Source of the DNA: Tautonia plasticadhaerens
GTDB taxonomy: Bacteria; Planctomycetota; Planctomycetia; Isosphaerales; Isosphaeraceae
Direction: 5' to 3'
Assembly: GCF_007752535.1 (NCBI RefSeq)
Contig: NZ_CP036426.1
Location: forward strand, 5,642,001-5,706,000
DNA: 64,000 bases
Notes under the pieces: model-generated
Databases searched by the model: none
What the model was told of the DNA's origin: nothing
The model's input: the letters and a program-made list of their open reading frames with translations, nothing else
Position numbers and translations under genes: made by a program
Shown: one piece after another, positions 42,676 through 47,017 of the stretch
Layout of the letters: every line of letters begins with the position of its first letter
How positions within the stretch are numbered: the first letter of the stretch is position 1

Positions 42676-42718
42676 GAAACGCCCGCCCGGCCCTCACCTC
42701 GGCCGGCGCGGGCGTTTC
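42676..42718. terminator. Terminator hairpin shared by convergent genes
   Basis: GAAACGCCCGCCCGGCC (42676-42692) pairs with GGCCGGCGCGGGCGTTTC (42701-42718), with one bulged base and an 8-nt loop. It would serve the small plus-strand gene. The stop codon of the minus-strand metalloprotease (42694) lies at the hairpin's loop boundary, so its last codons are part of the stem. Confidence 0.65.
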
Positions 42719-43878
42719 CCGTTTCCGGGCCCTGCGGCCCCCCGGAGCGGGATGCTCGGCCCCCGGGGCCGGTCCGAGGGCGAAACTGCCCAGCCGATCT
42801 CGACCGCCGTCATCGGCTCGACGTGCAGACGGGAGAGGGATTCGAGCCCTAGCACCATCACGTCTCGCTCGCTGACGGTCCCCCGGGGGAAGGTCGAGAG
42901 CGAGACGCCGTACTTGTCCTCGGCGCCGAACAGGTGCATCAGCTCGTGGACGAAGGTGATCGGGTCCGCGAACGGGGGGACGGCCAGCGGGGCCTCGAAG
43001 TCCTCCTCCCGGGCGTAGCAGGCGGCCACGGCCACGCCGGGGATGCCCGTCGCGTCGCTCGGCAGGGCGATCGACTTGCCCGCCCGGCGGACGTGCAGCA
43101 GCCAGACGACTTGGTCGGCCTCGATCCGGCGGCCGATCCTCCCGAGCAGGTCGACCGGGTCGGCGAAGCCGAGCGCCCCCGCGGTCCGGCCGAGGATGCC
43201 GAGGATCCGGGCCTCGGCGTCCGGGTCGGGCAGGCCGACGCCCCCCCACTCGTCGGGCCGGAAGATGGCGACCTCGCGGTCGGCGTCCGGCTCGACCCCG
43301 GAGAAATAGGTGTCGGCCAGGTCGACGTTCACCGGCACCTGCCAGCGGATCGCCTCGCGCTCGATCCAGGCCCCGGCCCGCCGCAACGCCCGGTGCGCCT
43401 TGAGGATCTCGTCGTCCGACCAGGGCGTGCCGTCCCGGCCGAGGAAGACCGACACGAGCGCCACCTTGCCCAGCAGCGGGGGGAAGCGTCGGCCCCAGAT
43501 CCGGAAGCTCCGGAAGGGCACCTCGCCCGGGCCCGGTTCCAGCGCGAGGAACCTCCGGAATTCGGGGCCGGCCCCGCCCGACTCGGCGACCACCCCGTTG
43601 ATCGCCACGACCCCCACCTCGCCATCCGCGGGCCGGTCGTCCCTCGGCCGTGCCGGGGGAGTTCGGTCCGGGGCCTCGTCGGCCCGATCCTCCTCGACCG
43701 GCGGCCGGGCGGCCCCGATCCTCACCCACAGGACCGCGGCCCCCAGGAGGACCAGGGCCGCCACCGAGGCCGCCCCCCACCGGCCGATCCCGGACGCCAG
43801 GAGTAGCCCCCCGGCCGCCGAGGCCGCGATCGCGCCCAAACCCCACCGGGCCCATCTCCCCCGTCGAGACCGAGCCAT
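42694..43878 (-). CDS. Membrane-anchored zincin-type metalloprotease-like protein (394 aa)
   Basis: I chose the ATG at 43878 (MARSRRGRWARWGL) because two hydrophobic helices follow (about 13-30 and 32-50); the longer open frame upstream is not protein-like. After a Pro/Asp-rich linker the protein has an alpha/beta domain and, near residue 335, FVHELMHLFGAEDKYG. This is an extended HExxH-x-x-G-x-x-D zinc motif as in metzincin-like peptidases. KYGVSLSTFP and RDVMVLGLESL follow where a Met-turn would lie. It was not matched to a named family. Likely an extracytoplasmic peptidase tethered to the membrane. Confidence 0.8.
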   Translation of the reverse strand: MARSRRGRWARWGLGAIAASAAGGLLLASGIGRWGAASVAALVLLGAAVLWVRIGAARPPVEEDRADEAPDRTPPARPRDDRPADGEVGVVAINGVVAESGGAGPEFRRFLALEPGPGEVPFRSFRIWGRRFPPLLGKVALVSVFLGRDGTPWSDDEILKAHRALRRAGAWIEREAIRWQVPVNVDLADTYFSGVEPDADREVAIFRPDEWGGVGLPDPDAEARILGILGRTAGALGFADPVDLLGRIGRRIEADQVVWLLHVRRAGKSIALPSDATGIPGVAVAACYAREEDFEAPLAVPPFADPITFVHELMHLFGAEDKYGVSLSTFPRGTVSERDVMVLGLESLSRLHVEPMTAVEIGWAVSPSDRPRGPSIPLRGAAGPGNGKRPRRPR

Positions 43879-44182
43879 CGTCCGCTCCACCCATCCGAGC
43901 AGGGCCCGCCCGTTTGCCTCCCCCGCTGATGCCGATCTTACCCGGGAGGAGGGCCGAGGGCGTCGGTCCCGATCCGTCCTCCCCGTTTCCACGACCCGTG
44001 GCGCGGGTCGACGGGTCGACGCCCGGCTCCTGCTGCCCTTGTCCCGAGGTATTCGGCCCGATAGAGTAATCGTTTCGATTCCGTCCGGTTTCGGGCTCGC
44101 GATCGACGCTGGCGTCCGAATGGTCCCGACCCGACACGCCGGCTCGACCCGATGCCGGCCGTTGAGGAGCGTGAACGCCGAG
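43879..44182. other. Divergent intergenic region between metalloprotease and arginine decarboxylase genes
   Basis: About 300 bp. It holds the candidate promoter at 44039-44067 for the arginine decarboxylase. A weak GAGGAGC lies shortly before the decarboxylase start. No further gene seen. Confidence 0.5.
44039..44067 (+). promoter_or_regulatory. Candidate sigma70-like promoter for the polyamine genes
   Basis: TTGTCC (44039-44044) and TAGAGT (44062-44067) are 17 bp apart, each matching 4 of 6 consensus bases. A start near 44074 would give a leader of ~110 nt. Moderate support only. Confidence 0.4.
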
Positions 44183-44728
44183 ATGTACGTCCCCAAGAAG
44201 CTGTTCTTCACCAAGGGTGTCGGGGTCCATCGCGAGAAGTTGTCCAGCTTCGAGCTGGCCTTGCGAGACGCCCGGATCGCCTACTACAACCTCGTCCGCG
44301 TGTCGAGCATCTTCCCGCCGAATTGCGAGGAAATCTCGATCGAGGAGGGGCTCGAACATCTCCAGCCCGGCCAGATCGTCCATTGCGTGATGAGCGAGTG
44401 CGCCACGGCCGAGCCGAACCGCCTGTGCGCCGCCAGCGTCGGCGTGGCGATCCCGCGGGACCGCAACCGCTTCGGCTACCTCTCGGAGCACCACGCCTTC
44501 GGCCAGAGCGAGCAGGTGGCCTCGGACTATGCCGAGGACCTCGCCGCCGAGATGCTCGCCACCGTGCTCGGCGTCGAGTTCGACCCGGACAGCTCGTGGG
44601 ACGAGAAGCGGGAGATCTGGAAGATCGCCGACGTGATCTACCAGACCAAGGAGGTCACCGCGACCTCCGTCGGGCACGCCCGGGGGCACTGGACCACCGT
44701 CGTCGCCGCGGCGATCCTGCTGCCCTGA
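44183..44728 (+). CDS. Pyruvoyl-dependent arginine decarboxylase
   Basis: 181 aa. The enzyme converts arginine to agmatine, using a pyruvoyl group made by self-cleavage of the proenzyme. [18 protein letters not shown] carries the conserved Ser-Ser cleavage pair (S41-S42 from the ATG at 44183), so S42 would become the pyruvoyl group of the alpha chain. [17 protein letters not shown] and [20 protein letters not shown] are further family segments, and the C-terminus ([17 protein letters not shown]) matches the archaeal/chlamydial type. An in-frame GTG at 44171 is an alternative start. The next gene is a deoxyhypusine-synthase homologue 68 nt downstream, which points to polyamine synthesis. Confidence 0.93.
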
Positions 44729-44796
44729 GCCCCGGCGTCGGGCGGGCACGTCCCCGCCCGGCGACCCTGGACTCGCGCCCTCCCCACCGACCCGGG

Positions 44797-46011
44797 ATGC
44801 CCATGGCCGCCGACGACTTCCTCCACCGCATCAGCCGACACCGGATCGCCCCCCCCCCGGTCACCGGCGACGTCTCGGCCGCCGACCTCGTCGACGGGGC
44901 GATGCTCAGCTACAACGGCGGCCGGCTCCGGGAGCTCTGCCAGGTCTTCGCCCGCAAGATGCTGGAGCCCGACTGCACCGTCGGCCTGACGATCTCCGGC
45001 GCCCTCACGCCCGCCGGCCTCGGCATGAGCTGCCTGATCCCGCTGCTCAAGGCCGGGTTCGTCGACTGGATCGTCTCCACTGGGGCGAACCTCTACCACG
45101 ACACCCACTACGCCCTGGACCTGCCGCTGCACCAGAGCCTCCCCGGGCTGGACGACTTCAAGCTCCGGGAGCACGACATCATCCGCATCTACGACATCGT
45201 CTTCGACTACAAGACGCTGCTCGACACCGACGCGTTCTACCGGGAACTGCTCGTCAGCGACGCCTTCTCCCGGTCGATGAGCACCGCCGAGTTCCACTTC
45301 GAGGTCGGCAAGTACCTGCACGCCCGGTCGTCGACCCTCGGCGGCACCCCCGGCAACAGCCTGCTGGCCGCCGCCTTCGAGGCCGGCGTGCCGATCTACA
45401 CCTCCAGCCCCGGCGACAGCTCCATCGGCATGAACGCCGCCGAACGCTCCCTGGCCGGGTCCGGGCTCCAGCTCGACACGCTCAAGGACGTGAACGAGAC
45501 AGCCGCGATCGTCTACGACGCGAAACGGAGCGGCGGAACCTCCGGCGTCCTGATCCTCGGCGGCGGCAGCCCGAAGAACTTCATCCTCCAGACCGAGCCC
45601 CAGATCCAGGAGGTCCTCGGCCTGGAGGAGTCCGGCCACGACTTCTTCCTCCAGATCACCGACGCCCGGGCCGACACCGGCGGCCTCTCCGGCGCCACCC
45701 CCCACGAGGCGATGACCTGGGGCAAGGTCGACCCCGACCGCCTGCCCGACGCCGTCGTCTGCTACACCGACAGCACCATCGCCCTCCCGCTGCTGACCGC
45801 CTACGCCCTCGACCGCCGGGAGCCGAGGCCGCTCAAGCGGCTCTTCGACCGCCGGGAGGCGATGTACGACCAGATCAAGGCCGCTTACCTCGAACGGGTC
45901 TCCAGCGGCCTGCCGACCGGCCTGGCCGCCCGGGAGAAGCAGAAGGCCAGGGGCCAGGACCAGCCCTCCCGTGACCCGAGCCACCCCGATACGGTCGATC
46001 GCGCCCGATGA
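44797..46011 (+). CDS. Deoxyhypusine synthase family protein (probable polyamine/homospermidine-type synthase)
   Basis: 404 aa. Eukaryotic deoxyhypusine synthase moves an aminobutyl group from spermidine to eIF5A with NAD; bacteria lack eIF5A, and their homologues have been linked to homospermidine formation. Conserved segments include [58 protein letters not shown] and the catalytic-lysine motif [15 protein letters not shown] (K310). Starts at 44797 and 44803 are both possible; neither has a strong ribosome-binding site. The neighbouring arginine decarboxylase suggests that the substrate is derived from agmatine, or that agmatine feeds the donor. The 3' end overlaps the Sua5 gene by 41 nt. 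Confidence 0.9.
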
Positions 46012-47017
46012 CCCGGACGACCCCGGCCTGATCGAGGCCGCCGCGATCCTCCGGGCCGGCGGCCTGGTCGCCTTCCCCACCGAGACCGTCTACGGCCTCG
46101 GCGCCGACGCGACCGACCCGGCGGCCGTCTCCCGGATCTTCGCCGCCAAGGGTCGTCCGCCGACCAACCCGCTGATCGCCCACGCCGACGGGATCGACCT
46201 CGCCCGGCGTTGCGTCGCCGACTGGCCCGAGTCGGCCGACTCGCTCGCCCGACGCTTCTGGCCGGGCCCGCTGACCCTGGTCCTGCCCCGATCGGCGATG
46301 ATCCCGGACGTGGTCACCGGCGGCGGGGAGACGGTCGGTGTCCGGGTCCCGGGGGGGGCCGCGGCCCGGTCCCTGATCGCCCGGGTCGGCCGCCCCCTGG
46401 CGGCGCCCAGCGCGAACCGATCGACCGGCATCTCCCCCACCCGGGCCGAGCACGTCTCGCGGGACCTCGACGGCCGGATCGACCTGATCCTCGACGCCGG
46501 GCCGACCGACGTCGGGCTCGAATCGACGGTGCTCGACCTCACGGCCGACCCTCCCCGCATCCTCCGCCCCGGCCCGATCGAGGCGGGGGCGATCTCGGAT
46601 CTCCTCGGCCGGCCCGTCCGGTCGGGGGCGGGCGACGCCCCGCCCCCGACCAGACGGGCCGCATCGAGTCCCGGCCTGATGGCCGTCCACTACGCACCCA
46701 GGACGAGGGCCGTCCGCGTGGAGCCCGGGGAGGCGGTCCCCGAACTGCCCCCGGCCGATCGCCTGGCGATCCTGGTCGTCGGGGGGGATCGGCCGCCGAT
46801 GGCCGGGCTCGACGCCGGGCTCCGGGTCGACCTGCCCGAGCCGGTCGGGGCCGCGAGGGACCTCTACGACGCGCTCCATCGCTGCGACTCGTCGCACTCG
46901 ACTCTGATCCTGGTCGGGATGCCCCCCGACCTGCCGGCCTGGGCCGCGATCCGCGACCGGCTCCGGCGGGCGACCTCCCCGGCCGAACCGGGACCGTCGG
47001 CGCGGCATCAATCTTGA
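45971..47017 (+). CDS. L-threonylcarbamoyladenylate synthase (Sua5-type)
   Basis: 348 aa, with both the YrdC domain and the C-terminal Sua5 domain. It makes threonylcarbamoyl-AMP for the t6A37 modification of ANN-decoding tRNAs. [49 protein letters not shown] and [15 protein letters not shown] are the ATP/threonine/bicarbonate site motifs. [13 protein letters not shown] marks the linker between the domains. The start at 45971 overlaps the DHS-like gene, so expression is probably coupled to it. Confidence 0.94.

Follow-up and report, generated by a model that had tools for sequence, protein, structure and literature searches.

The closest described system pairs speY with the gene for a pyruvoyl arginine decarboxylase. 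SpeY, a homologue of deoxyhypusine synthase (DHS), is reported to make homospermidine from putrescine (PMC9992855), and arginine decarboxylase/speY pairs are known for enzymes derived from AdoMet decarboxylase (AdoMetDC), those of Gimesia maris included (PMC10407285). In these speDA-speY clusters, as that paper describes them, the decarboxylase gene lies directly upstream of speY, while aguA and aguB are elsewhere. CdmS of Thermus thermophilus (TTHA1570; NCBIfam model NF002699) is also a DHS homologue and likewise belongs to an agmatine-based homospermidine route.

We analyzed a stretch of 64,000 nucleotides from Tautonia plasticadhaerens (C1:5642001-5706000 of the genome, termed “the window”), in which a pyruvoyl-dependent arginine decarboxylase (PvlArgDC) gene lies directly upstream of a speY-type gene. 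The layout resembles speDA-speY. However, the decarboxylase beside speY is here of the PF01862 family, which has a different fold from the AdoMetDC-derived enzymes according to PMC9992855, and no gene of the AdoMetDC family (PF02675) was found in the genome. Full-text searches, which covered few subscription papers, returned no published report of the PF01862 type beside speY. In the papers that these searches found with both “pyruvoyl-dependent arginine decarboxylase” and “homospermidine,” the former phrase occurred in reference lists only. That a PF01862-type decarboxylase beside speY is a variation on a known arrangement is well supported by gene content. The features of the pair are collected in Table 1.

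Table 1. Features of the PvlArgDC-speY pair, in window positions
Feature	Position	Strand	Remarks
PvlArgDC gene (pyruvoyl-dependent arginine decarboxylase)	44183..44728	+	181 aa; predicted agmatine maker
Ser42 codon, PvlArgDC	44306..44308	+	Predicted self-cleavage serine; aligned to 1n2m and 2qqd
SpeY-type DHS homologue	44797..46011 (start 44797 or 44803)	+	Predicted homospermidine synthase
Lys309 (WGK) codon, SpeY-type protein	45724..45726	+	Predicted imine-forming catalytic lysine

A sequence-only reading of this DNA had described the two genes as neighbors on one strand, and their coordinates, adjacency, and shared plus strand were confirmed. Both candidate starts of speY are ATG codons, the one at 44803 being closer to the starts in relatives, and the gap between the genes is 68 or 74 bp depending on the start chosen. 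A simple consensus scan of positions 44000-46100 returned no terminator-like and no promoter-like sites. Downstream, a Sua5/TsaC-type threonylcarbamoyl-AMP synthase gene (45971-47017, plus strand; TIGR00057, 190.3 bits, cut-off 123.2) overlaps the end of the speY-type frame. Upstream, there is a divergent long open frame without a Pfam match (42694-44214, minus strand), whose translation contains an HELMH stretch that by eye resembles a zinc-protease motif.

The product of the first gene passed PF01862 (209.1 bits, cut-off 22.7, E = 4.6e-62) and TIGR00286 (125.6 bits, cut-off 106.95), in agreement with the identity first given to it. With NF009064, it scored narrowly below the cut-off (199.4 bits versus 207). 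By alignment, the protein has the processing serine pair of PF01862 enzymes (Ser41-Ser42), and this pair and Asn36 align with the matching positions of two solved structures, 1n2m and 2qqd; at one of these positions, each solved chain has Ala. We take the Ser42 position to be the self-cleavage serine that is turned into the pyruvoyl group. The window protein therefore shares its family and its serine context with the archaeal enzymes (1n2m and 2qqd), but it has 181 residues compared to their 165 to 166, comes from a bacterial host, and is encoded beside speY. Most of the 30 PvlArgDC copies that we read from Isosphaeraceae, the family of the host, have the N terminus MYVP(K)LFFTKG in common.

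The product of the second gene matched PF01916 (219.9 bits, E = 5.8e-65) and passed NF001980, “homospermidine biosynthesis protein” (555.8 bits, cut-off 450), which was the sole model passed among the NCBIfam models that it matched. The DHS models TIGR00321, NF002006, NF002630, NF002294, and NF003052 gave 75 to 208 bits against cut-offs of 304 to 434, and none was passed. With the caldomycin-synthase model NF002699, the score was 158 bits (cut-off 500), on which we rejected this identity for the window gene. Judged by these scores, the protein is a member of the already named homospermidine family NF001980 and not of the agmatine-coupling NF002699. We found no difference from SpeY homospermidine synthases, and the same activity is predicted; the placing of characterized SpeY enzymes in NF001980 rests on the name of the model.

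An AlphaFold2 model of the SpeY-type protein, built from a 30-row alignment, reached a pLDDT of 89.4 and a pTM of 0.88. Its top solved match was human DHS (6p4v_B; Z 32.5, rmsd 2.4), with 303 residues aligned at 23% identity. The catalytic lysine motif was said from the start to be kept, and Lys309 indeed aligns with the WGK of solved DHS and was invariant in both alignments A1 (11 rows) and A3 (30 rows). Met211 and Leu296 align with positions that are Asp in Brugia DHS. CdmS is also hydrophobic there, with Phe204 and Leu286 compared to Asp243 and Asp316 of human DHS (PMC10981699), and thus this pair of residues does not separate SpeY from CdmS and is no argument for putrescine.

Using two conserved peptides against named genomes, we found at least 586 encoded relatives and kept the best 80, whose titles include Planctomycetota, Gemmatimonadota, Verrucomicrobia, Acidobacteria, and others. 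Among the DHS-like genes that we compared was a divergent subgroup of five, comprising L040 (genome G016), L042 (the second such gene of G035), L043 (G040), and L044 (G052), all below every NCBIfam cut-off, and L041 (G030). The catalytic lysine is kept in all five.

The genome searched for the rest of the pathway measures 9.4 Mb (99.3% complete, 3.8% contamination). The top place for AguA (agmatine deiminase, PF04371) was C1:7508559-7509611 (E = 3.4e-113), and the candidate for AguB (N-carbamoylputrescine amidase, TIGR03381) was at C1:7513636-7514475 (about 287.6 to 287.9 bits; runner-up, 120 bits). Both were below the strict NCBIfam cut-offs (265 versus 381.8 bits for AguA and about 287.9 versus 410.25 bits for AguB), and thus their identities rest on their being the best candidates and on their proximity, 4 kb apart on one strand by genome coordinates. 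By coordinates, aguA and aguB are also close neighbors in many relatives. The two candidates are approximately 1.8 Mb from the PvlArgDC-speY pair, and two long opposite-strand frames lie between them (L038 5533-11500; G000:C1:7508532-7514499). We discounted a second PF04371 place (C1:6743259, 94.3 bits) as only distantly related, the AguA model giving 41.6 bits on the partial stretch scanned.

The window had been described as containing no agmatinase, agmatine deiminase, or aminopropyltransferase gene. This held, with no match to the arginase/agmatinase family PF00491 anywhere in the genome and with both PF04371 places and both PF01564 places outside the window. The two PF01564 (Spermine_synth) matches were partial (48.6 and 46.2 bits, above the Pfam cut-off of 22.9). 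Their coverage is 11-130 and 18-130 of 186, and the open frames that hold them are 876 and 2123 aa long; by eye, the matches look like parts of long membrane-like frames. The best score of the NspC model was 28 bits against a cut-off of 409, at the position where the only PF02784 gene of the genome lies. With this score and no PF02675 match, spermidine synthesis by SpeD/SpeE or by CASDH/CASDC was rejected, and the complete classical spermidine pathway that the sequence-only reading had named as evidence against itself was not found. On this gene content, agmatine can probably reach putrescine via AguA and AguB.

Taken together, we propose, with a probability of roughly 0.78, that the two genes provide the opening and closing dedicated steps in the synthesis of homospermidine, leading from arginine through agmatine, N-carbamoylputrescine, and putrescine to homospermidine. 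The proposal draws on protein families, gene complement, linkage, and a complementary distribution across genomes, from which we infer the chemistry, the order of steps, the product in the host species, and the history of the pair. PvlArgDC would cleave itself at Ser42 to form the pyruvoyl group and then convert arginine to agmatine, which AguA and AguB would take to N-carbamoylputrescine and on to putrescine. The SpeY-type enzyme would oxidize one putrescine with NAD and bind the aminobutyl group to Lys309 through an imine; transfer to a second putrescine and reduction would then give sym-homospermidine. The agmatine-based route and the DHS-type, NAD-dependent aminobutyl transfer to homospermidine suggested earlier are retained here. 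However, since the genome has AguA and AguB candidates, agmatine need not feed the DHS-like enzyme directly.

Isosphaera pallida, another species counted among the Isosphaeraceae (PMC5352709), is tabulated with sym-homospermidine only, the table giving no putrescine, spermidine, or cadaverine for it (PMC4334474). Such data vary, as Gemmata obscuriglobus is listed with homospermidine only in one source (PMC4334474), whereas spermidine is reported for it in another (PMC10817699).

We compared 59 genomes, comprising the window's own and 58 relatives, of which 37 belong to the Isosphaeraceae and 22 to other families. A DHS-like gene was found in 53 of the 59. PvlArgDC was found in 35, all of them Isosphaeraceae, and the 22 genomes from other families had none. 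Both genes were present in 34 of the 37 family genomes, the remaining three (G006, G012, and G034) being 77 to 85% complete. The linkage proposed earlier proved to be conserved, with the genes adjacent on the same strand in 29 of these 34 (119 to 976 bp between the matched stretches). Seven of the best 80 (of at least 586) named loci were family genomes again, and all seven had the pair. A Sua5-like relative was found in the same seven. When the neighbors in these best 80 loci were clustered, most clusters were frames overlapping the DHS-like gene, and the clear neighbors were PvlArgDC (10 loci) and the Sua5-like gene (7 loci). One metagenome bin titled “Isosphaera sp.” (L083) lacked PvlArgDC over its 7 kb, and its SpeY falls among the Gemmataceae, which speaks against either its own title or the presence of PvlArgDC throughout the family.

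The pair was also found once each under the contig titles Hydrogenedentota, Nitrospirae, and Acidobacteria, and the latter two contigs carry an agmatinase gene as well. In a phylum-wide sample, PvlArgDC occurred in 77 of 294 genomes. Within the short flanks of the 19 best phylum-wide loci (the window's excluded), an arginase-family gene was present in 5, one of which also had a DHS-like gene, and neither was present in 14. In L151 (G058; 475-2256), an AdoMet_dc-family gene lies directly upstream of the DHS-like gene on the same strand, resembling the Gimesia speDA-speY layout.

Where the two genes were not adjacent in the family, the DHS-like gene was of the CdmS type in G004 and G022, of another subtype in G016 (below every cut-off) and G030 (placed by alignment), and a fragment at a contig edge in G021. 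CdmS-type genes were seen in three family genomes, namely, L008 of G004 (NF002699, 576.9 bits, cut-off 500), L010 of G022 (by alignment and score class), and L009, the second DHS-like gene of G028 (602 bits). In G004 and G022, both near complete, the CdmS-type gene is accompanied by AguA and AguB, and PF00491 is absent. These two would be the clearest cases of a different order of steps, in which the DHS-like enzyme couples two agmatines to caldomycin and AguA and AguB, instead of a ureohydrolase, remove both guanidino groups. The window SpeY could match them. Thermus CdmS is reported to couple agmatine only (PMC10981699), the neighbor of speY is the decarboxylase and not aguA or aguB, and Met211 and Leu296 are closer to the CdmS residues than to the Asp pair of animal DHS. 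However, the window protein falls far short of the CdmS cut-off, and in an approximate by-eye mapping made without the Thermus sequence, it differs at two of four modeled CdmS guanidino contacts (Pro71 and Tyr137). Furthermore, the Thermus route ends with a ureohydrolase and not a deiminase (PMC10981699), while the host genome has no gene of the ureohydrolase family, and the reported substrate of SpeY is putrescine (PMC9992855). We therefore consider it unlikely that agmatine is coupled first in the Isosphaeraceae. Based on NF001980 membership and the presence of AguA and AguB candidates, the order in which putrescine is formed before coupling is favored.

Pyruvoyl arginine decarboxylases have roles in arginine/agmatine exchange or acid resistance in some other bacteria, and PvlArgDC could serve such a role here, its position beside speY being incidental. 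We regard this as very improbable, given that the pair is adjacent in 29 of 34 family genomes and that PvlArgDC is the only arginine decarboxylase candidate among the families searched, which included PF01862 and PF02784, the latter with the one gene at the weak NspC match. Hardly credible is modification of a protein lysine, e.g., on EF-P, as the eukaryotic relative acts on eIF5A; the fold and the catalytic lysine are common to DHS, but the DHS models listed above failed, a spermidine donor pathway was not found in the genome, and the gene is linked to an arginine decarboxylase.

The usual bacterial enzyme was sought as a further PF02784 gene of 117 to 144 bits in a frame of 607 to 747 aa, termed “SpeA-like” by family and length and not by a SpeA model. 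Second PF02784 matches of other kinds were left out (G009, G035, G028, and G007, with further ones in G048, G054, G057, and G058). A SpeA-like gene was found in 19 of the 22 genomes outside the family compared to 3 of the 37 inside it (G012, G017, and G031, the last with a frame of 465 aa). Among near-complete genomes, PvlArgDC was present in 22/22 and SpeA-like in 1/22 within the family, while outside it, the counts were 0/21 and 18/21. Thus, of these 43 genomes, 21 had PvlArgDC only, 18 had SpeA-like only, 1 had both (G017), and 3 had neither (G042, G046, and G058), a complementarity with a Fisher P value of 4e-8 when shared descent is ignored. AguA was found in all 22 near-complete family genomes (in G018 as a contig-edge fragment of 44 bits), and PF00491 was found in none of them, although it was present in the less clean G007, G011, and G028. 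A DHS-like gene and AguA occurred together in 39 of the 43. G042 and G046, which are from one genus, had no DHS-like, AguA, PvlArgDC, SpeA-like, PF00491, or AdoMetDC gene, suggesting that neither makes polyamines by these routes.

The PvlArgDC tree comprised 24 of the 30 family copies read, 19 copies from elsewhere in the phylum, and 3 from outside it. The family copies formed a single clade (99/97), joined by one Hydrogenedentota and one Nitrospirota copy (99/93); these two sit beside speY but came from the speY search and are thus a biased sample. The unlinked copies of G004, G022, and G030 grouped within the family clade, suggesting a loss of linkage in these genomes. A SpeY tree of 107 rows, made with a quick method, grouped the Isosphaeraceae with the Gemmataceae and one f6 row (SH-aLRT 97). 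The Hydrogenedentota pair was just outside this group (83); those of the Nitrospirota and Acidobacteriota were placed elsewhere. The Gemmataceae-like genomes (f3) had no PvlArgDC. With the pairs in separate places, the SpeY tree does not support a single common origin of PvlArgDC-SpeY pairs. The simplest reading is that speY was resident and PvlArgDC newly arrived, and that the same pairing was reached more than once. In an ancestor of the Isosphaeraceae, PvlArgDC would have displaced a PLP-type SpeA and ended up adjoining the resident speY. The usual bacterial enzyme seems to have given way to an archaeal-type decarboxylase across the family.

If the proposed pathway holds, homospermidine synthesis through SpeY draws on a third kind of arginine decarboxylase, unrelated to the others, and one bacterial family has exchanged its PLP arginine decarboxylase for a pyruvoyl one. 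With a CdmS-type enzyme taking the place of SpeY while the gene set is otherwise similar, the choice between putrescine-first and agmatine-first orders becomes directly testable. The pathway would also provide a gene-level account for the homospermidine-only pattern tabulated for Isosphaera.
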